A DNA stretch of 20,045 nucleotides. Source: a virus. Under the pieces are notes generated by a model. The model saw only the letters and a program-made list of their open reading frames with translations, was not told the origin of the DNA and did not search any database. Below, in pieces: positions 2,137 to 19,379 of this stretch. A program made the position numbers and the translations under genes. The first letter of the stretch is position 1, and each line of letters begins with the position of its first letter. The stretch covers positions 1 to 20,045 of IMG/VR virus record IMGVR_UViG_3300035162_001786; one strand, written 5' to 3'.

Positions 2137-2487
2137 TTAACCTATAATATCGTCATAGTAACCAGTATCGAACCTTAGGTCAAATAACTTACGTTTATCT
2201 TGTTGTATTAATACCGGAACAGGAGAGGCATTTGAGCCGTTTGTAGGTTCACTCCACAGCCATTCATAATCGCCGTTATCAATTTTTTTGTGTAATTTTT
2301 TTAATCTTCTACGATTAAGTTTGGGACAAATATAAACAATAGCCTGGTTGTTGCCTAGCGGCTCAATCTCTCCAGACCATTGTATAATTTTTATTTCGCC
2401 CTTTTTGTGAGCTGCGCCACTCCAAGGACAAACTGGTTTAATATGTTGGAAATATTCTTCCCAATTAACCTCTTGACTTCTTACCAC
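2137..2487 (-). CDS. Conserved phage protein of unknown function, 116 aa, GTG start
   Basis: The start codon is GTG (2485-2487) and the protein contains no internal Met, so no ATG alternative exists. It overlaps the end of the 912-aa gene by 23 bases and ends just before gp17, indicating one transcription unit with coupled translation. The sequence includes NWEEYFQHIKPVCPWS and a basic run PKLNRRRLKKLHKKI. I recall similar short proteins beginning near NWEEYF next to terminase genes in marine T4-like phages, without an assigned function. It is too unlike gp16 to be the small terminase, and no membrane segment or catalytic motif is visible. The position suggests a packaging or head role, which is only inference. 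Confidence 0.8.
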   Translation of the reverse strand: MVRSQEVNWEEYFQHIKPVCPWSGAAHKKGEIKIIQWSGEIEPLGNNQAIVYICPKLNRRRLKKLHKKIDNGDYEWLWSEPTNGSNASPVPVLIQQDKRKLFDLRFDTGYYDDIIG

Positions 2488-3142
2488 GACTCTTTTTACC
2501 TTTAGAGCCCTCAGTTGTTTTAATGTCTTCGTTGCCGCGTGATGCTTTTAACTTCTTCTTAGTACCACGTGAACTGCCCTCGGCTGAAGCTTTTTCTTGC
2601 AATGCTGCCCATAGTCTTTCTTTGACTGATTCTACAGCCATTGCATTGTCGCCATCTTGTGCTTTAGCATATGCTTTTTTAGGCTTATGAATGCCACCTG
2701 ACTGATACATTGTATCGTCATCTTTATATTCTTCGTCTGGTGAGTTATCCCACCCATCTTCGTCAACATCATCATCCATTGGTGATTTGCCGCCGGATAG
2801 TTTAATAATATCGTCCATGTCATCAATGTCTTTGCTAGGTGGTGCTAGTCTTGGAGCATTATCATCGCCACCGCATGGTGATTCATCTGGCATATCATGG
2901 CCGTGATCCATAGGACCTACTTCCATATCATCATTACCGTCTCTATCTAAGTCTATACCTGCGCCGCCTGGTATCGGCTTAATTGGCATTGGAGTATCCA
3001 TTGGCATGTCAATTGCTCCAACTGGTGCAGCATTAGGCATACCTGCATTTTTAAGTATATTAAGTAGTTCACTTACTTCACTTGCATTGTCGGCACTCAT
3101 TGAAATATTCATTGATGCTGATTCTTTAATTGTTTTTTTCAT
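2465..3142 (-). other. Possible internal in-frame translation start giving a 225-aa C-terminal product
   Basis: Inside the 912-aa frame, Met688 (ATG at 3140-3142) is preceded by AGTAGGACAACT, a Shine-Dalgarno (AGGA) at five-base spacing, as good as that of the full-length start. The following MKKTIKESASMNISM looks like a natural N terminus and opens a compositionally distinct region (Met/Asp/Pro-rich, then a basic tail). This could be a separately translated product or the scar of a gene fusion. Not proven. Confidence 0.35.
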
Positions 3143-5203
3143 AGTTGTCCTACTTTCCGTTTTTTGAATTTCAGGTACAGTTCCCGGAGGTCCGTCTTTT
3201 CCGGTACCGGGTGCTACTTTACTTTTAGGCGTACCGTCTGGATTATGAGTTGCACTATATTGCTTATCCCATCTTCTTTGTCCAATATCACCGCCTAAGA
3301 AATTTTTCTCAGGTCTAGGTGCTACTTTGCCCGAAGCATCTGTTTCTCCAGGTTTAATTGGTGCTGCAGGTTGCTCTACTCCCAGTCTTTTTAAAGAAAC
3401 GTTAAGATTTTCTAAATCACCGCCGCTCATTTCACTTCTTAGGTCTGCGGTTAAGTCTCTTTGATACTCTGATTTATACGCAGCAATAACCTTAGTATAA
3501 CTAGCAGCATCTTTTAATTTAGCTAATATTGTAAACACTGCCTCTTCGTTAGTGCCCATCCCAAAGTCCATACCGCCCTTTGTTGCGTTGTACAGTCCTT
3601 GTGCAACTTCAACATGATTAGTAATTTCATCTATTGTTTTTGGACCGCTTTGTTGTGCTGTTGAAGCGCCGCTTTGTGCTGCTGGGTCTTCTGCGCTAGA
3701 AGCAATTGCTTTTCCTGCTTTAAATACATCGTCATATTGTGCGTATGCTTGTGCAGTTTCTGGATCTTCTAATTTTGCTTTGTGTTTGTTTAACAAGCCT
3801 TTAAGCTCTTCCATTTCCTCTGGACTTAATGCTTCATTTAACTGTTGCAGTGTTTCTAACATCGACCGCATATCAAACATAGATTCTGCAGCTGGTGCTT
3901 TGTGTTTAGCAATTAATTCTTGTATACGTGCAAAGTCTTTTTCTAATGAATCGTCAATACTGCTCTGCGGATCCTTTGAATAATCTAATAATGCTTTTGC
4001 TGTATTTTTACCTGGGTCACCGTCTACTTTAAGGTCAGCTAGTGTTTGTGCTCGTTTAGTTGCCGAAATACTTGCTGGTCCAAAATATCCGTCTGCTTTA
4101 ATTTTCTTTAATTCTTCATTATTATTTGCTACACCAATACGCATTAATACAGTTTGGATAGCGGCTGCACTAGCAGATTTTATTTTACCTCTGTTAGTTG
4201 CCTTGTTTAATCCATTTGCGTTCTTAGATTCAAGTTCTTTAGGCATCTCGTTAGCAATCCATGCGTCAACATCACCTACTGCTTGCTCAATTGCTTCGTC
4301 ACTTGAATAGTCTCCGTTGAAACTATCTCCTGCAGCATCAGCAGTGCCATCAGCAGTGCCATCAGCGGTGCCATCAGCGGTGCCATCAGCTGGTCCGTCA
4401 ATACCTGCGTTTGCGTCTTTGTCGCCTGCTTTCCACATATCATACTTGTTAATAGCATCATTAATTTGATCAACTACTTCGTCGTCGAAGTCCAATTCCA
4501 TGCCTTTTAGTTCAGCATACAAACTTTGTAATTCTTCTAATTCGTCACCTTCAAGTGCTTCTGAAAGTAACTGATCTGCATACGAACGAGGCATATAACT
4601 TTCTGTTTTTGTATCTGCCATTGCTTTTGTAAGCAATTCCATAAATCTTGTATACTTTGTTTTTGCTGATTCAAGTTTTTCATTGCTGCCTGCTTGTGCT
4701 GCTGGTTCTTCAGTGTTACCTTTATTATTAAATGTAGTACCCTCTGGATAGTCAACCTTCTCACCGTCAACAATCTCGCCATCTACACTTGCAGGATTTA
4801 ATGCGCTACGATTGTTTACATCACCTTGCCAAGGTGCAATTACCTTTTTGTTAGTTTCTTGATCACGTTTTTGAAAATAAAACTTGCCATCAGTGTGTAA
4901 CATAAGACTGTTTGTTAGACCTAAATTATTCTTGTGGAAGTGTGTTGCTTTAAATTCAGTAGGTTTTGCATTCTCGTCTTTAGGTGCGGCTTTGTTAAAT
5001 ACGTGCCAACCGGGGTAATTATTAATGGTTTGCTTTAGTTTTTCTGTATCTTTTCCGTGTAAATCAAAAATTTCACCAGTTCTATCTCTAATTTGAATAC
5101 TTGGCAGATCACGGTTAACATTAAAGTTAACTAACTCTCCGTTGCTTTGGATTCTATACGCTTTACGCTCAATTAAATTTATTATTGATCTAATATCATT
5201 CAT
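2465..5203 (-). CDS. Large mosaic virion-associated protein with PG-binding-like and annexin-like domains
   Basis: A 912-aa acidic, multidomain protein with ATG at 5201-5203 preceded by a good ribosome site (GGAAG, five-base spacing). Regions in order: N-terminal MNDIRSIINLIE, resembling a capsid-targeting peptide; a first helical module (about 182-262); a run of ADGT repeats (about 270-289); a peptidoglycan-binding-type domain (about 344-407) with DGYFGP and VDGDPGKNTAKAL; a second copy of the helical module (about 422-497); an annexin-like repeat (about 532-603) with GMGTNEEA and AYKSEYQRDL; an Asp/Pro/Gly-rich linker; an internal Met688 with its own Shine-Dalgarno; and a lysine/serine-rich tail ending KKSRGKKSRG. 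It sits between the 187-aa gene and the packaging genes. It is probably virion-associated or head-internal; the exact role is unknown. No lysozyme or peptidase catalytic motif was seen. Confidence 0.85.
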   Translation of the reverse strand: MNDIRSIINLIERKAYRIQSNGELVNFNVNRDLPSIQIRDRTGEIFDLHGKDTEKLKQTINNYPGWHVFNKAAPKDENAKPTEFKATHFHKNNLGLTNSLMLHTDGKFYFQKRDQETNKKVIAPWQGDVNNRSALNPASVDGEIVDGEKVDYPEGTTFNNKGNTEEPAAQAGSNEKLESAKTKYTRFMELLTKAMADTKTESYMPRSYADQLLSEALEGDELEELQSLYAELKGMELDFDDEVVDQINDAINKYDMWKAGDKDANAGIDGPADGTADGTADGTADGTADAAGDSFNGDYSSDEAIEQAVGDVDAWIANEMPKELESKNANGLNKATNRGKIKSASAAAIQTVLMRIGVANNNEELKKIKADGYFGPASISATKRAQTLADLKVDGDPGKNTAKALLDYSKDPQSSIDDSLEKDFARIQELIAKHKAPAAESMFDMRSMLETLQQLNEALSPEEMEELKGLLNKHKAKLEDPETAQAYAQYDDVFKAGKAIASSAEDPAAQSGASTAQQSGPKTIDEITNHVEVAQGLYNATKGGMDFGMGTNEEAVFTILAKLKDAASYTKVIAAYKSEYQRDLTADLRSEMSGGDLENLNVSLKRLGVEQPAAPIKPGETDASGKVAPRPEKNFLGGDIGQRRWDKQYSATHNPDGTPKSKVAPGTGKDGPPGTVPEIQKTESRTTMKKTIKESASMNISMSADNASEVSELLNILKNAGMPNAAPVGAIDMPMDTPMPIKPIPGGAGIDLDRDGNDDMEVGPMDHGHDMPDESPCGGDDNAPRLAPPSKDIDDMDDIIKLSGGKSPMDDDVDEDGWDNSPDEEYKDDDTMYQSGGIHKPKKAYAKAQDGDNAMAVESVKERLWAALQEKASAEGSSRGTKKKLKASRGNEDIKTTEGSKGKKSRGKKSRG
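4337..4396. repeat. 12-bp tandem repeat encoding ADGT units
   Basis: Four near-perfect copies of ATCAGCAGTGCC (one position varies A/G between the first and last pair, 4337-4384) are followed by a degenerate fifth. On the coding strand they encode Ala-Asp-Gly-Thr repeats, an in-frame flexible acidic linker in the 912-aa protein. The 12-bp period keeps the frame under copy-number change. Confidence 0.85.
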
Positions 5204-12638: not shown

Positions 12639-12974
12639 ATGAGACCTTTATGCAAGTGCAGGCAACATCCGTGTGCTATAAATTATAAAAAAGAAGGTAA
12701 AACCTTTTATAGAAGTGTGTGCGAACGGTGTTTGCGCAACGGGGTAAACTACGGTATTCCGCTGTGGCAACAAAGAGGATATGATAAAAAGGATTATTGC
12801 GAGAAGTGCGGGTATGCATCAAAGCACACTGAACAGTTTAATGTGTATCATATAGATGGAAGCCTACAAAATTGTAGGCCAAACAATTTAAAAACTATTT
12901 GTGCAAACTGTCAACGAGTGTTGCAAAAAGAAGGATTTAAATGGAAGCAAGGTGACCTTTTACCCGACTTCTAA
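12639..12974 (+). CDS. Cys-rich HNH-like zinc protein, 111 aa
   Basis: The protein has Cys5/Cys7/Cys12 and a CERC pair (28-31), then CEKC (54-57) and CANC (88-91) flanking YHIDGSLQNC and NNLKT, the layout of an HNH (beta-beta-alpha metal) fold with a structural zinc. The usual catalytic pair before the IDG is present only as Tyr70-His71, and the His that often follows the last CxxC is Gln92, so the nuclease activity may be altered or lost. I recall close relatives in cyanophages annotated as hypothetical or zinc proteins. The start (ATG 12639) follows GTGAGG. It lies between gp18 (divergent) and gp1, whose 3' end overlaps it by 38 bases on the opposite strand. Function unassigned. Confidence 0.8.
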   Translation: MRPLCKCRQHPCAINYKKEGKTFYRSVCERCLRNGVNYGIPLWQQRGYDKKDYCEKCGYASKHTEQFNVYHIDGSLQNCRPNNLKTICANCQRVLQKEGFKWKQGDLLPDF

Positions 12975-13530
12975 GTTCTAACAACGATCCGCTATTATCT
13001 AATACGTTGTCAAAAGCAATGTTAGCCCACGCCCATTCTGATTTATGTACATCAGTTGGTTCTACTTGTAAATCAACATACATTCTAAACCAAACAGGAT
13101 CAGGTCCTCTACGTATGCGCCAAACGTCTCCACCGATACTTTTAAGCATCTTAGCTTCGTTTTCAAAACGTACATCAGGAATAACATAATTTTTATTTGG
13201 ATTTTGTTGAATTTCTTGCTTAACAAGACTTACCCATATGCCGTCGTAGAATCCATTTCGCATACAATCAGTACCAAACTCTTGTAGCACTAATCTTGGA
13301 GTAATAGTGCGGCCTGTTTCGTTTGACCAAAAAGTGTCTTCTTGTTCACGCCAGGCTCTACTTTTTTCTGTATTTCCTTCTAGCATAACTCTGTCCCAAC
13401 CAAACACAGCCGACACACCGTCTTTTAACTTATCTGCAAATGAAAGTTTTTTAAAGTTGTTTTCTTGTACTAGAATGTCTGCTACAGTGTCTTTGCCACT
13501 ACCAATTAAACCACAAATGCCAATTATCAT
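12937..13530 (-). CDS. gp1: Deoxynucleoside monophosphate kinase gp1
   Basis: Phosphorylates dNMPs to dNDPs for phage DNA synthesis in the cytoplasm. I place the start at ATG 13528-13530 (197 aa), preceded by AAGGAATAAAGTT; an 18-residue longer reading to 13584 would run through the promoter and lacks a ribosome site. The P-loop GLIGSGKDT begins at residue 7. Other landmarks are KLSFADKLKDGVSAVFGWDR, TPRLVLQEFGTD, YVIPDVRFENEA and EWAWANIAFDNVLDNSGSL, matching marine-phage dNMP kinases (T4 gp1 is 241 aa). It is driven by a consensus sigma70 promoter (13556-13584) rather than a late one, fitting an early nucleotide-metabolism role. Its 3' end overlaps the convergent zinc protein gene by 38 bases. 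Confidence 0.88.
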   Translation of the reverse strand: MIIGICGLIGSGKDTVADILVQENNFKKLSFADKLKDGVSAVFGWDRVMLEGNTEKSRAWREQEDTFWSNETGRTITPRLVLQEFGTDCMRNGFYDGIWVSLVKQEIQQNPNKNYVIPDVRFENEAKMLKSIGGDVWRIRRGPDPVWFRMYVDLQVEPTDVHKSEWAWANIAFDNVLDNSGSLLELRSRVKGHLASI

Positions 13531-13555
13531 AACTTTATTCCTTAAATATAAAGCT

Positions 13556-13584
13556 ATTATATACGAAAAATAGACAAATGTCAA
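13556..13584 (-). promoter_or_regulatory. Consensus sigma70 promoter for gp1
   Basis: On the minus strand TTGACA (13584-13579) is followed after exactly 17 bases by TATAAT (13561-13556). Both hexamers are perfect E. coli-type consensus. It points to gp1, whose ATG begins 26 bases past the -10. It covers the first ATG (13578) of the halogenase frame on the other strand, so the divergent genes share this regulatory region. Confidence 0.85.
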
Positions 13585-13595
13585 GAGATTTAACT

Positions 13596-15134
13596 ATGAA
13601 AAAAGACAAAATTACAATAGTAGGCGGAGGAACAGCGGGATGGTTAGCAGCACTTGTAATTTCTCGAAGGAACCCTTTATATGACGTTACTGTAGTATCG
13701 TCAGAAAAGATAGGTGTAATAGGTGTAGGAGAAAGCACCACTGGATTTTTTACTAATGTAGTTTGTAACGAATTTTTTAACTTAGATTGTGATATTAATG
13801 AATTTATATCCGAAACTGGTGCTACTTTAAAATATTCTATAAAACACAAAGGGTGGACTAAAGATAAAAATCAGCACTACCACGGTCCTATTGATGGTTG
13901 GGGATTTTCGGAAAATACTGAAGATATTTTTTTAAAATACGCACTAGCATATGAAACTGACCAAGATGAGTTATTATCAATTTCTCAAATGGGGTCGTAT
14001 ATATCAACAGGTAAGAGTAATTTTAATAATGGGCATTTTACAGATGTTTCACACGCCATGCATATTGATGCACATTTAGCAGGACAATATTTTAGAAAAA
14101 AATGCTTACAAAAAGATAATGTAGTGCATTTTGATACCGAGGTTATAAATGTAAACTTAGACGAAAAGGGCTATATTTCTAGTATAGATTGTGCAGATGG
14201 AAAAAATATTAAATCAGATATTTTTATAGATTGCACAGGTTTTAAGAGATTACTGCTTAACAAATTAGGTGCAAAATGGCATAGTTACAAAGAAAATTTA
14301 CCAGTTAAAGCTGCAATACCGTTTCATCTACCGTATAACCAAAACGAAATGCCAGAACCTTATACTACTGCAACAGCACTATCTGCAGGATGGATGTGGC
14401 AAATACCATTAATGGATCGAAAAGGATGCGGATATGCATTTGACACAGATTTTATTACTCCAGATCAAGCGTATTCAGAAATTGAATCTAAATTAGGTAC
14501 AAAGGTAGATGCTTCTCCGTTAATAAAATTTGATTCAGGAAGACAAGAAGAGTCATGGATTAAAAATTGTATTGCTATAGGGTTGTCTAGTGCCTTTTTG
14601 GAGCCATTAGAAGCAACTAGTATACACACTACACTTTGTCAGATAAAATCCCTATCTGACGAATTTATACTTTCCAATGCAAAAGATACTTTAAATACCG
14701 GATCTATAGAATTATATAATAAACGTACAAGACTTCTGTTTGATGATACAAGAGACTTTCTTGTTATGCATTACATGGGGGGCAGAAATGATACTGAATT
14801 TTGGAAATATATTTCATCAGGAAATACACAAACTGAGTATGTTAAAAATTTAATCGAAATGTCGAAATATAAAGTTCCAGGACCAAATGACTTTCCTTCT
14901 TATTTTGGAGCTGCAGGATGGGGACTATATAGTCATGTAATGAAAGGCTTAGGTTTACTTGATCCTGCAATGTGTAGGAAAAATATAGAATCAGATTTTT
15001 TACAAATACCTTTTACAAAAACTTTAGTAGATCACGACTATCGACCATTGAAGGAATTTATTGCTACAAGAAGTGAAAACTCTCTTAGCTATAATAGTTT
15101 TATACAATATTTTAGAGATAAAAGAAAAAATTAA
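13596..15134 (+). CDS. Flavin-dependent halogenase (tryptophan-halogenase family, viral type)
   Basis: This enzyme would use FADH2 and O2 to make HOX and halogenate a substrate; the family includes the marine viral iodinase VirX1 from cyanophage Syn10. From the ATG at 13596 (512 aa): the FAD-binding GGGTAGW begins at residue 10; GVGESTTGF follows; the catalytic lysine fits TLKYSIKHKGW (Lys79, the same number as PrnA Lys79); the family signature WxWxIP is WMWQIP (266-271); and PLEATS holds Glu339, equivalent to PrnA Glu346. All key halogenation residues are present, so the gene looks intact. An alternative start at 13578 is worse because it lies in the gp1 promoter; AAGAG at 13583-13587 precedes 13596. 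No late promoter is seen. Substrate and halide cannot be told from sequence; free tryptophan should not be assumed. Confidence 0.92.
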   Translation: MKKDKITIVGGGTAGWLAALVISRRNPLYDVTVVSSEKIGVIGVGESTTGFFTNVVCNEFFNLDCDINEFISETGATLKYSIKHKGWTKDKNQHYHGPIDGWGFSENTEDIFLKYALAYETDQDELLSISQMGSYISTGKSNFNNGHFTDVSHAMHIDAHLAGQYFRKKCLQKDNVVHFDTEVINVNLDEKGYISSIDCADGKNIKSDIFIDCTGFKRLLLNKLGAKWHSYKENLPVKAAIPFHLPYNQNEMPEPYTTATALSAGWMWQIPLMDRKGCGYAFDTDFITPDQAYSEIESKLGTKVDASPLIKFDSGRQEESWIKNCIAIGLSSAFLEPLEATSIHTTLCQIKSLSDEFILSNAKDTLNTGSIELYNKRTRLLFDDTRDFLVMHYMGGRNDTEFWKYISSGNTQTEYVKNLIEMSKYKVPGPNDFPSYFGAAGWGLYSHVMKGLGLLDPAMCRKNIESDFLQIPFTKTLVDHDYRPLKEFIATRSENSLSYNSFIQYFRDKRKN

Positions 15135-15889
15135 CCGATTACGAAAGTATATCCTGCTCCGCCTGCAACTGCTGTTGCTACTTCTTGCTCTAGCTTTTCC
15201 ATTTCTTGCATTGCTTCGTTCTTTAGCGCATCGCCGTTTAACTGACCGCCACCTTGTGGCCCTGCAATAGTAGCAAATTTACTACGTGCTTCGCCTAGCA
15301 TATACTTACAAGTTGCTACAGTATAATCTTTAATCCACTGTTTTGCAAGATAATCGTCCATAATTTGTTCATCCGGGCGATAATTATAACAAAGTAACAT
15401 TAGTGTTTCTTCTGCTCTTGTGCGCTGTAGTACTGTAAGTTTTTTAGTTGTTGAATTCCATTTAAATTCAATATACGAGCCAAACATTCTGCCTACTAAC
15501 TCTTGGTACTGACTAAACATATCGTATGTTGCTAGTCCGCCCATGTTTGAACTTGACAACAAATATGTGTTAGTGTATGCCATGTTAAATGGTTCGAACA
15601 ATGTGCCGCCGTCTCCGCCCCCGGAGCGTGAACCAATACTTCTACGGAAAATTTGACGTACTTCAACTACCTCATTAGGCAATGTATAAGTATTCTGGTC
15701 AATTACTGTCGGCAAGAAGAAATAACTTTCTTCAACTGAATTATCCGAGCGTTGTCTAAATCTAGTCAATGCCTTAGTTAAAGCTGTCTCGTAATGTACA
15801 GGATCTAATTCGACATCAACCATACCGCCACCTAACATAGCGTACACATAGTCAAATATCTCTTGTTTTTTAGTTTGTAATGTTGCCAT
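15131..15889 (-). CDS. gp13: Neck protein gp13
   Basis: A 252-aa head-completion/neck protein (T4 gp13: 309 aa), transcribed leftward from a late promoter at 15909-15915 with GGAGAACAATTAAC before the ATG. Marine-phage landmarks are LGGGMVDVELDPVHYETAL, RFRQRSDNSVEESYFFLP, EVRQIFRRSIGS, TYDMFSQYQELVGRMF, ARSKFATIAGPQGGG and a C-terminal GYTFVIG. Gp13 and gp14 together bind the portal after packaging and accept the tail. Here gp13 and gp14 are divergent rather than in one operon. Its stop overlaps the halogenase stop by four bases on opposite strands, with no visible terminator between. High confidence from remembered family sequences. Confidence 0.88.
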   Translation of the reverse strand: MATLQTKKQEIFDYVYAMLGGGMVDVELDPVHYETALTKALTRFRQRSDNSVEESYFFLPTVIDQNTYTLPNEVVEVRQIFRRSIGSRSGGGDGGTLFEPFNMAYTNTYLLSSSNMGGLATYDMFSQYQELVGRMFGSYIEFKWNSTTKKLTVLQRTRAEETLMLLCYNYRPDEQIMDDYLAKQWIKDYTVATCKYMLGEARSKFATIAGPQGGGQLNGDALKNEAMQEMEKLEQEVATAVAGGAGYTFVIG

Positions 15890-15945: not shown

Positions 15946-17109
15946 ATGCCGAGACTTAGTTTATATAAACCAGAAAAGGGCAAAGACTTTAAATTCATAG
16001 ACAATCGCATCTATGAAATGTTCACCATGGGTGGAACCGATGTCTTTGTTCACAAGTATCTAGGACCAAAAAATCCTGATGAAGCAGACGCGACTGCTGA
16101 CCAGCCCCGTTACGATGCGGTTAAGGAAACTAATATACAAGATATGTTGTTTATGGAAAACAGGGATCGAAAATATGATCCCGACATTTACAGTATGCGA
16201 GGTATATATAATGTCCAAGACATAGATTTTAATATGAGCCAATTTGGTTTATTCCTATCTAACGATACAGTGTTTATGACTATACACATCTCTTCTAGTG
16301 TAAAAACATTAGGTAGAAAAATTATAAGTGGTGACGTAATTGAACTTCCTCACTTAAAAGACGAGTATGCACTTAACGATTATAGTGTTGCACTAAAACG
16401 CTTTTACGTTGTCGAAGACGTAAATAGAGCCGCAGAAGGATTTTCGCCTACTTGGTATCCGCATCTATATAGAGTAAAACTTAAACAGATAATGGATAGT
16501 CAAGAATACAAAGAAATATTAGATTTGCCAGCTGAAGAAGATGTACCGGGTGGCAACACATTACGAGACTTACTCAGTACATACGAGCATGAAATGCAAA
16601 TTAATAATGCTGTAGTTGCTCAAGCAGAAGCTGATGCAGCAAAATCAGGGTATGACACAAGTCATTTCTTTAGTCTTGCAACTGACGAAAACGGCGAAGT
16701 TGATCTAGTTACTGTAGACACTAACAGCCTTGATGCTAGTACTGCCAACGAATTAGCAGATAGAGTAATGCAAACGCCTAGTAGAGAAGGATATCAGGGA
16801 TACTTATTAGGTGACGGAATACCTGGCAACGGCGAAGCATTTGGTCATGGCATAACATTTCCTGGAGGTAGTATGGAAGGCGACTTTTTCTTAAGGACAG
16901 ATTTTATGCCTAATAGATTATTTAGAAATGACGGACAACGTTGGGTCAAGCAAGAAGATAAAGTACGCATGACGTTAACTAATACTGATACAAAAGCGAC
17001 CCAAAAAGGTACGTTTGTTAATAATACATCTACAAATACAATTGGTGGTGACACTGTACAAGAAAGACAGAGCTTATCAACAGCACTTAGACCTAAGGCA
17101 GATAACTAA
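15946..17109 (+). CDS. gp14: Neck protein gp14
   Basis: A 387-aa neck protein (T4 gp14 is 256 aa). I start at 15946: MPRLSLYKPEKGKDFKF is the conserved N terminus, and the ATG lies at the predicted +1 of the late promoter. An upstream ATG at 15940 overlaps the promoter element itself, and a longer frame from 15895 runs through both promoters. Further landmarks are MGGTDVFVHKYLGPK, VYRVKLKQI-like and LPAEEDVPGGNTLRDLLS, a C-terminal PSREGYQGYLLGDGIPGNGE, FLRTDFMPNRLFRNDGQRW and the terminal ERQSLSTALRPKADN. It acts with gp13 at the head-tail junction. Its stop shares one base with the gp15 ATG (TAATG). Confidence 0.88.
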   Translation: MPRLSLYKPEKGKDFKFIDNRIYEMFTMGGTDVFVHKYLGPKNPDEADATADQPRYDAVKETNIQDMLFMENRDRKYDPDIYSMRGIYNVQDIDFNMSQFGLFLSNDTVFMTIHISSSVKTLGRKIISGDVIELPHLKDEYALNDYSVALKRFYVVEDVNRAAEGFSPTWYPHLYRVKLKQIMDSQEYKEILDLPAEEDVPGGNTLRDLLSTYEHEMQINNAVVAQAEADAAKSGYDTSHFFSLATDENGEVDLVTVDTNSLDASTANELADRVMQTPSREGYQGYLLGDGIPGNGEAFGHGITFPGGSMEGDFFLRTDFMPNRLFRNDGQRWVKQEDKVRMTLTNTDTKATQKGTFVNNTSTNTIGGDTVQERQSLSTALRPKADN

Positions 17110-18572
17110 TGCAACATTTTTACGATGGCCAAATACGAAGATACATTACTCAAATAGTAAGACTTATGAGTAACTTTTCTTACCAAGACGGAGCAGGACA
17201 ATTAACACAAGTTCCTGTTATGTATGGAGATATTACACGCCAAGTAGGACATATTTTAAGAGACAACTCAGAAAATAAAATTCCAAGTGCTCCGAGGATG
17301 GCCGTATATATTACTGGTCTTGAAATGGATAGTGCGCGACTTAGTGATAGTAGCTATGTTAATAAAGTTAATATTAGAGAACGTGCGTATGATGCAGATG
17401 GAAAAGAATACTTAAACACCGAAGGCAAGAACTATACTGTAGAGCGATTGATGCCTACTCCATATACCCTTAGTGTTAATGTGGATTTATGGACATCAAA
17501 TACAGATCAAAAATTGCAACTAATGGAACAAATATTGATGTTGTTTAATCCTAGTCTTGAAATACAGACAACAGATAACTATATTGATTGGACTAGTCTT
17601 AGTGTTGTAAACTTAGCAAACATTGGGTTTAGTACACGAAGTATTCCTGTAGGAACTGAAACAGAAATAGATGTTGCACAACTAGGATTTACAACACCTA
17701 TATACATTTCTCCTCCTACAAAGGTAAAACGATTAGGAGTTGTTACTAGCATTGTTCAAAGCATTTACGACGAATCACGTGGCACTATTGAACTAGCGCA
17801 AAGTACACCAGAACTGCAATCATATGCAGATACTAGTGTTCCTAAAGCAGATATTAGAACAGGAGTGTTTGTTACGCCAACTGGCGAAATTGGAAGGCAA
17901 AATAATAATCTAGGCGCTATCAAAGATAACGCTACAAATGTAATTAATAACACGTTTAAAGATTATGGATTATTAGTAATGGGAACTTCAGCTAAACTTA
18001 TAAGGCGCGGCGTAGTTGGTAGCGTACAATGGGATGCATATATTAAAGCACTGCCAGAAATATTTGAACAAGGTATTACCGAAATACGGTTAAGTCGTAA
18101 AGACAGAACCACTGAAATTGCAGGCACAGTTGCTATAAACTCAACTAGCCCTACAGAACTAATTGTAAATTGGGACGTAGATACATTACCTAGTGATACA
18201 GTGTTTACTGGTCCAACTGGTGATGCAAATAAAATACACTACATTGTTGACCCTACTAAAACAAGTCCAGTAAATTTAAAAACATCAGGTTATAGATTCT
18301 TGTTATTAGATTCTGGTATCGGTGATGGCATCAATACAGACGGTGCCGACGATTGGAAAAATACAGACGGTACTGATTTTGTTGCAGGTGCTAACGATAT
18401 TGTTGAGTGGAATGGTACAGCATGGTCTGTAGTATTTGATTCTAGTACATACGTTGGCACAGCATATACTTCTAACTTAAATACCGGAGTACAATACAAG
18501 TGGGATAACGGCGAATGGATATTATCATTCGAAGGCGAATATCCAAATGGAACCTGGCGTTTGAAATTCTAG
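17109..18572 (+). CDS. gp15: Tail sheath stabilizer gp15
   Basis: Caps the tail tube and sheath at the head-proximal end (T4 gp15: 272 aa); here 487 aa. The N-terminal ~260 residues carry the typical FYDGQIRRYITQIVRLMSNF, VPVMYGDITRQVGHILRDNS, VNIRERAYDADGKEYLNTEG, NYTVERLMPTPYTLSVNVD and LMEQILMLFNPSLEIQTTDN. The C-terminal ~170 residues form an added beta-rich domain ending in WNGTAWSVVFDSS, YKWDNGEWILSFEGEYPNG and TWRLKF, a Trp-rich module I recall from marine-phage gp15 and structural proteins. It is translationally coupled to gp14 by a one-base TAATG overlap. The assignment is strong; the function of the extra domain is unknown. Confidence 0.88.
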   Translation: MQHFYDGQIRRYITQIVRLMSNFSYQDGAGQLTQVPVMYGDITRQVGHILRDNSENKIPSAPRMAVYITGLEMDSARLSDSSYVNKVNIRERAYDADGKEYLNTEGKNYTVERLMPTPYTLSVNVDLWTSNTDQKLQLMEQILMLFNPSLEIQTTDNYIDWTSLSVVNLANIGFSTRSIPVGTETEIDVAQLGFTTPIYISPPTKVKRLGVVTSIVQSIYDESRGTIELAQSTPELQSYADTSVPKADIRTGVFVTPTGEIGRQNNNLGAIKDNATNVINNTFKDYGLLVMGTSAKLIRRGVVGSVQWDAYIKALPEIFEQGITEIRLSRKDRTTEIAGTVAINSTSPTELIVNWDVDTLPSDTVFTGPTGDANKIHYIVDPTKTSPVNLKTSGYRFLLLDSGIGDGINTDGADDWKNTDGTDFVAGANDIVEWNGTAWSVVFDSSTYVGTAYTSNLNTGVQYKWDNGEWILSFEGEYPNGTWRLKF

Positions 18573-18585
18573 CATAATTATTTGT

Positions 18586-19014
18586 ATGGAAAAGATTATT
18601 TGCAGTGGCGCACTGTTCTATACATTAGATACTCATAGATTTTTATTTCTACATAGAACTAAAGGAAAACAAAATAACCTTTGGGGACTTGTAGGCGGTA
18701 CCAATGAAGGTGAAGAAACTCCGTGGGAAAGCCTACAGCGTGAAATTTCTGAAGAAATCGGTACTAGGAAGATTAAAAAAACTATACCTTTAGAAACGTT
18801 TGTTAGCAATGATGACAAGTTTCAATTTCATACATACTTGTGTCTTGTAGAAAACGAATTTATTCCTATACTCAACGACGAACATGATGGGTATGCATGG
18901 GTATCATTTTCAAAGTGGCCAAAGCCGTTACATCTTGGATTAAGAAACACACTGCAAAATAAAACTAACCTACTTAAATTAGAAACAGTATTCAAGCTAA
19001 TAGAGTTGATATGA
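18586..19014 (+). CDS. Nudix hydrolase
   Basis: A 142-aa enzyme expected to hydrolyse a nucleoside diphosphate linked to another moiety. The Nudix box is complete: Gly38-x5-Glu44-x7-Arg52-Glu53-Ile54-x-Glu56-Glu57-x-Gly59, with Thr60 in place of the usual final aliphatic residue. It is preceded by the strand-loop NNLWGLVGG. The C-terminal part (LHLGLRNTLQNK) is typical of phage Nudix proteins. The substrate is not predictable. It begins 13 bases after gp15 with no good ribosome site, so expression is probably low or coupled, and its stop overlaps the first ATG of the cupin gene (ATGA). It is carried on the late gp14-gp15 transcript as an accessory gene. Confidence 0.9.
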   Translation: MEKIICSGALFYTLDTHRFLFLHRTKGKQNNLWGLVGGTNEGEETPWESLQREISEEIGTRKIKKTIPLETFVSNDDKFQFHTYLCLVENEFIPILNDEHDGYAWVSFSKWPKPLHLGLRNTLQNKTNLLKLETVFKLIELI

Positions 19015-19025
19015 CGAAGGATAAT

Positions 19026-19379
19026 ATGCAAGATAAAGATAATATAAAACACACTCCGTTTGGCTATGAAATAACTTGGATTGCTGAAGAATCGTATGGT
19101 GGGAAAATTTTAGTATTTGACAAATTATCAAAAACAGACTTTTGGTTTAATAATAAAACTGAAAAGTCTTGGTTTGTTAATAATGGCTCGTTTGTTTTTA
19201 GATGGATAGATACTGCAACAGGACAGGTGTTTGAAAGAGAAGCATCTGAAGGGTTTGTGTTCACTGCAAAGCCTCTTGTTCCGTGTGCAATACAATGCAC
19301 TGTGCCTGGCAGTATAGCAGAAGTTAATAACGGAACCAATGACGATCATTTTATTGTTGTTAAGAAAGAAAGCTATTAA
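19026..19379 (+). CDS. Degenerate cupin-like protein
   Basis: I start at ATG 19026 (117 aa), preceded by AAGGATAAT; an ATG at 19011 overlaps the Nudix stop and is possible. The opening FGYEITWIAEESYGGKIL matches phage cupins of the mannose-6-phosphate-isomerase-like type (WGYEIIW..YVGKIL), and the beta-strand pattern of a single cupin barrel follows. However, the metal-binding His residues are replaced: DFWFNNKTEKSW stands where HxHxxE usually is, and LVPCAI where PHR usually is. It probably does not bind metal and may be structural or regulatory. Neighbours are Nudix upstream and a one-base overlap with the 85-aa gene. Family assignment is moderate; function unknown. Confidence 0.7.
   Translation: MQDKDNIKHTPFGYEITWIAEESYGGKILVFDKLSKTDFWFNNKTEKSWFVNNGSFVFRWIDTATGQVFEREASEGFVFTAKPLVPCAIQCTVPGSIAEVNNGTNDDHFIVVKKESY

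Follow-up and report, generated by a model that had tools for sequence, protein, structure and literature searches.

Why should a gene for a flavin-dependent halogenase lie within the structural gene cluster of a phage, between gp1 and gp13? The question is raised by a linear IMG/VR record of 20,045 bp, the whole of which constitutes the window analysed here. The location itself, noted in a sequence-only reading of the window, is borne out by the neighbouring genes, which encode a gp1-type deoxynucleoside monophosphate kinase on the left and a gp13-type head-tail adaptor on the right (Table 1). Phage halogenases are already catalogued as phrog_2928, which 70 phage records match. In cyanophages, annotations of tryptophan halogenase go back a long time, the older labels including prnA. 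The gene in the window adds to this known family of enzymes an intact-looking member from a phage lineage that is unusual. Our preferred reading, held with good confidence, is that the product is a working PF04820 flavin-dependent halogenase, carried by a PA5oct-related myovirus as an accessory cassette that is exchanged between phages.

Table 1. Coordinates of the halogenase gene, its motif codons and its surroundings in the window.
Feature	Position	Strand	Basis or remark
gp1-type deoxynucleoside monophosphate kinase, left neighbour	12937..13531	-	homology
Exchange tract	13489..15136		4 mismatches to contig L003, all in the gene; flanks mostly 70-85% identical
Perfect sigma-70 promoter TTGACA-17-TATAAT of gp1	13556..13584	-	halogenase directly behind its -35; also at the empty site of several sisters
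Flavin-dependent halogenase (Trp_halogenase family, phage clade A)	13596..15134	+	512 aa; homology, tree, AF2 model
GxGxxG FAD-binding motif codons, residues 10-15	13623..13640	+	alignment
Catalytic Lys79 codon	13830..13832	+	invariant in 84/84 aligned phage halogenases
WxWxIP motif codons, residues 266-271 (WMWQIP)	14391..14408	+	alignment
Catalytic Glu339 codon; Ala340 next	14610..14612	+	alignment
gp13-type head-tail adaptor, right neighbour	15131..15889	-	homology; stop codon overlaps halogenase stop

The halogenase reading frame is open from end to end. An in-frame ATG is also found 18 nt upstream, at 13578, and the start at 13596 agrees with the N-termini of relatives. The Pfam Trp_halogenase profile PF04820 matches residues 5-426 (E 1.8e-95), phrog_2928, labelled 'tryptophan halogenase', is matched with an E value of 5.7e-108, and 31 distinct PDB sequences are recovered, the best at 2.1e-69. 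The complete set of halogenase motifs that had been claimed for this protein is present: the FAD site reads G10xG12xxG15, the WxWxIP motif W266-M-W268-Q-I-P271, and the catalytic glutamate is embedded in P-L-E339-A-T-S. Alignment with solved halogenases, which had been proposed as a check, places both Lys79 and Glu339 in register at the level of sequence, 8fov included. Glu339 is nearly invariant among the 84 aligned phage halogenases, and the protein of S-RIM44 has Gln at this position. Judged from the primary sequence, these motif and profile matches are far beyond chance.

One residue of the active site departs from the best-characterized enzymes. A serine stands beside the catalytic glutamate in Thal, PrnA and PyrH (PMC7948982), and the equivalent site of VirX1 is likewise Ser; this feature (Ser359 in Thal), which some family members lack, is replaced by Ala340 in the window protein. 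As almost every member of phage clades A and B has alanine after the catalytic glutamate, and as 13 of the 88 halogenase ORFs that were scored at bacterial loci also read EAT, Ala340 looks like a subfamily feature and by itself would be no sign of decay.

A halogenase fold is confidently predicted for the protein. The AF2 model, built from 50 relatives, has a mean pLDDT of 92.1 and a pTM of 0.92, and all 50 of the PDB matches listed by Foldseek are flavin halogenases, with query-normalised TM scores of 0.81-0.87. The substrate pocket is more distinctive. Four motifs have been listed for tryptophan halogenases (PMC8269204). The window protein has STTGFF in the place of Trp1 and, where tryptophan halogenases carry the H-x-F of Trp2, it has YHGPID at residues 95-100; H-x-F is absent throughout its clade, and Y95, P98, D100 and G101 are invariant in alignment A1 of clade A. 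The segment SYFGAAGWGLYS aligns to the Trp4 lid region of the PyrH type but differs from the Trp4 motif, and FPSYFGAAGWGLYS, a C-terminal segment, can be aligned with the lid region in enzymes of the PyrH/Tar14 type. The best PDB alignments, to tryptophan 5- and 6-halogenases, extend to residue 456, whereas the match to VirX1 ends at residue 407. The pocket thus looks like neither a standard tryptophan site nor that of VirX1: the motif YxGP[IL]DG in place of H-x-F would speak against a PrnA- or PyrH-like binding of free tryptophan, and it differs from that of VirX1.

The phylogeny of phage halogenases, obtained by a quick method with SH-aLRT support, resolves into four clades. Clade A comprises the window halogenase, with S-RIM44 in a basal position (support 99), clade B the proteins of P-SSM2 and S-SCSM2R (100), and clade D VirX1 and its Syn10 neighbour (99); clade C is supported at 100. 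The window protein does not cluster with the VirX1 group in this tree. Clade A is under purifying selection: dN/dS is 0.04-0.11 in pairs of its members, most of which are near synonymous saturation, and the one pair with a dS of 0.31 gives 0.066.

The host genome of this gene appears to be that of a myovirus related to the PA5oct-type jumbo phages. The terminase encoded in the window is 54% identical to those of PA5oct-type Pseudomonas phages (284-288 kb) and 49% identical to that of Sinorhizobium phage Phosso, and the nearest relatives of gp13 present the same picture. A megablast search with the window matched no phage record. A cyanophage origin was rejected on these three grounds. Contig L002 represents approximately the same phage, with 16,446 of 16,450 overlapping bases identical, and adds 4 kb; beyond the end of the window it encodes a subtilase-family protein (16936-18516, minus strand) and a 2OG-Fe(II) oxygenase (19876-20469, plus strand). 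Elsewhere in the window (2465-5203, minus strand), a 912-aa protein combines a peptidoglycan-binding domain with a match to the annexin repeat (29.3 bits against a Pfam cut-off of 25), an odd stretch to meet in a phage protein. In another related record (G014, C1:25275-28208, the record of L028), the terminase large subunit is matched in two pieces with approximately 1.3 kb between them, reminiscent of an intron or insertion.

How the gene came to its present position can be approached through related phages. At 11 sister loci gp1 lies next to gp13, with a gap of approximately 64 bp and no halogenase between them, and the halogenases of these sisters are located elsewhere. The sister gap holds a GTCAAG element, which in six of the 11 is part of a TTGACA-TATAAT promoter directed into gp1; the window halogenase sits between the -35 of the gp1 promoter and the stop codon of gp13. 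The same gp1-halogenase-gp13 arrangement recurs in L003, and a 1,648-bp tract known from this one short contig (7.5 kb) differs from the window at four sites, three of which are amino-acid changes. Such a tract would be expected if diverged phages had recently exchanged a cassette, and the position of the halogenase has probably been acquired recently. The tract may instead be a double assembly chimera, as it rests on a single contig whose right-hand junction is found in no other IMG/VR contig. The location, initially described as unexplained, is partly accounted for by cassette insertion or exchange, because gp1 and gp13 are adjacent in the sisters and a near-identical tract is shared with the diverged L003. 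It would reflect insertion into a tolerant intergenic spot and not a structural role for the enzyme. Insertion driven by a homing endonuclease was considered and rejected, as sisters without the insertion also have the small HNH-like ORF next to gp1. This Cys-rich ORF (12639-12974, plus strand), maintained beside gp1 in the sister phages, has no Pfam, PHROG or NCBIfam match.

The timing of expression was considered from promoter motifs. The heptamer ATAAATA occurs only eight times in the window, both strands counted. Seven copies lie 13-43 nt before annotated gene starts, a placement that fits a T4-type late promoter, and the eighth, at 542-549, is at the margin of the stretch that was annotated. 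No GATAAATA late promoter is found within 80 nt before the halogenase, and 11 of the 12 halogenases of relatives checked over 100 nt similarly lack one. The claim that the gene differs from its neighbours in having no late promoter is therefore correct as to the absence, but the contrast is only half true: gp13 and the sheath gene have such a promoter, whereas neither the adjacent gp1 nor the small ORF preceding it has one. The stretch CTTAAATA, which lies upstream of the halogenase, was considered as a hidden late promoter and rejected, since it reads as the ribosome-binding site of gp1 (TAAGGA) in reverse complement, a site that sister phages share. No convincing promoter for the halogenase was found on the plus strand. 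Earlier or middle expression of the gene is plausible on this basis.

Most of the related records carry more than one halogenase, and these are divergent. Between two and six PF04820 matches per record are present in 19 of the 21 related records examined, a count in which one diverged ORF matched in two pieces figures as two; L003 and the contig matching the window have one match each. Several halogenase clades are found together in many of these records. 2OG-Fe(II) oxygenase genes adjoin the halogenases in many, and DUF6445 or chaperonin-like genes in some. In the sister group, a NUDIX gene lies upstream of a tandem pair of halogenases, and those contigs that extend further show HldE-like, HldD-like and cupin genes after the pair. 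Beside the arrays of L024 and L027 (records G011 and G013) lies a strongly diverged halogenase-like ORF of 396-402 aa on the opposite strand. The window itself contains an ORF (19011-19379, plus strand) with the PHROG label cysteine dioxygenase, a cluster member of which weakly matches WbuC-type cupins; its counterpart in sister phages adjoins the HldE-like and HldD-like genes. In a limited literature search, no paper was identified as describing multi-halogenase arrays in phages.

What the enzyme acts upon is a matter of competing readings. The sequence-only reading had proceeded from VirX1 to a broad-substrate iodinase, a step that is not supported. An open pocket, broad substrates and a preference for iodide would be in keeping with the family, the phage origin and the catalytic Lys and Glu shared with VirX1, but the two proteins belong to separate clades (SH-aLRT 99 each), are 27% identical and differ in their pocket motifs (YHGPID versus YPFGP), and the C-terminal region of the window protein aligns with lid-bearing enzymes past the end of the VirX1 match. 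The use of iodide by VirX1 has been ascribed to the absence of the helical lid, and iodination to its loss (PMC7948982), so that iodide use is not to be inferred for the window protein; a VirX1-like activity is quite improbable. The opposite proposal, a true tryptophan halogenase that makes halogenated tryptophan during infection, as the old cyanophage prnA annotations imply, could draw on the best PDB sequence matches, which are tryptophan 5- and 6-halogenases, and on a PyrH-like Y-x-G...Y-S segment near residues 436-446. It is nevertheless unlikely, given that the Trp2 motif (PMC8269204) is missing from the whole clade and that no pathway using halotryptophan is seen. The step from 'tryptophan halogenase' to pyrrolnitrin, made in older papers, was likewise rejected for want of pathway support in the window.

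Modification of proteins is a further candidate, in which the enzyme would halogenate aromatic residues on proteins of the virion or the host and the 2OG-Fe(II) oxygenases would complete a post-translational modification set. The position of the gene in a virion-gene region, both in the window and in HTVC008M, and the arrays of relatives with their many 2OG oxygenases speak for it; nothing links the halogenase to a protein substrate, however, and the halogenases of other phages lie among metabolic or sugar-nucleotide genes, which makes this proposal improbable. The enzyme might also generate HOX without a dedicated organic substrate, to the harm of the host or of competitors. Leakage of HOX is documented for the family (PMC7948982), but the clade-specific pocket, conserved with four invariant residues in A1, and the purifying selection acting on the clade together suggest a specific substrate, and a mere HOX generator is very improbable.

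By analogy with the family, halogenation chemistry is likely for the window protein. FADH2 from a reductase encoded elsewhere would react with O2 and a halide, and the HOX so formed would move to Lys79 and, with the participation of Glu339, halogenate an electron-rich aromatic substrate. Neither a flavin reductase nor pathway genes for the halogenase were recognised in the window. The neighbours of related halogenase copies hint, weakly, that the likeliest substrate would be a small molecule, aromatic or linked to a sugar, from a pathway of surface modification or secondary metabolism. A broader proposal, offered tentatively and as less likely than not, is that PA5oct-related myoviruses keep up to six old, divergent halogenases which, together with numerous 2OG-Fe(II) oxygenases, would form a single system of oxidative tailoring and modify a surface molecule or protein made by phage or host; the window gene would then be a relocated, freely exchanged member with a substrate pocket of its own.

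No natural substrate has been demonstrated for any phage halogenase in the literature examined, and the genetic context of the arrays, with its 2OG oxygenases and its HldE-, HldD- and cupin-like genes, provides a lead to one. What the window halogenase suggests is threefold: the gene behaves like a cassette open to exchange, phage halogenases divide into several clades that differ in their pocket motifs, and VirX1 may be unfit as a model for all of them.

Comparison with known systems places the protein more exactly. Like VirX1 of cyanophage Syn10 (PDB 6QGM), it is a phage-encoded PF04820 halogenase with the same Lys79, Glu and WxWxIP, but VirX1 comes from a phage of another lineage, has YPFGP at Trp2 and carries EST instead of EAT. 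The nearest named phage protein in the tree, the halogenase of cyanophage S-RIM44, is 33.5% identical and, unlike the window protein, has Gln at the Glu339 position and is encoded among metabolic and tRNA genes. The halogenase of Pelagibacter phage HTVC008M also lies within the virion gene cluster, where it adjoins the large terminase, and bears the motif EPLEATS, yet it is 35% identical, belongs to another clade and occupies another place in the cluster. Tar14, AbeH, PyrH and PrnA, the best PDB matches by sequence and structure, share the fold, the FAD site, the catalytic Lys and Glu and WxWxIP, whereas the window protein lacks their tryptophan-binding Trp2 motif and has Ala instead of Ser beside the glutamate. 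The closest cellular homologues found, at 32-39% identity, are alphaproteobacterial PF04820 proteins (Rhodobacter, Devosia and others); the EAT motif is present in some bacterial homologues, but several of the alphaproteobacterial genes adjoin ABC-transporter, solute-binding-protein or GH4 genes and not phage genes.
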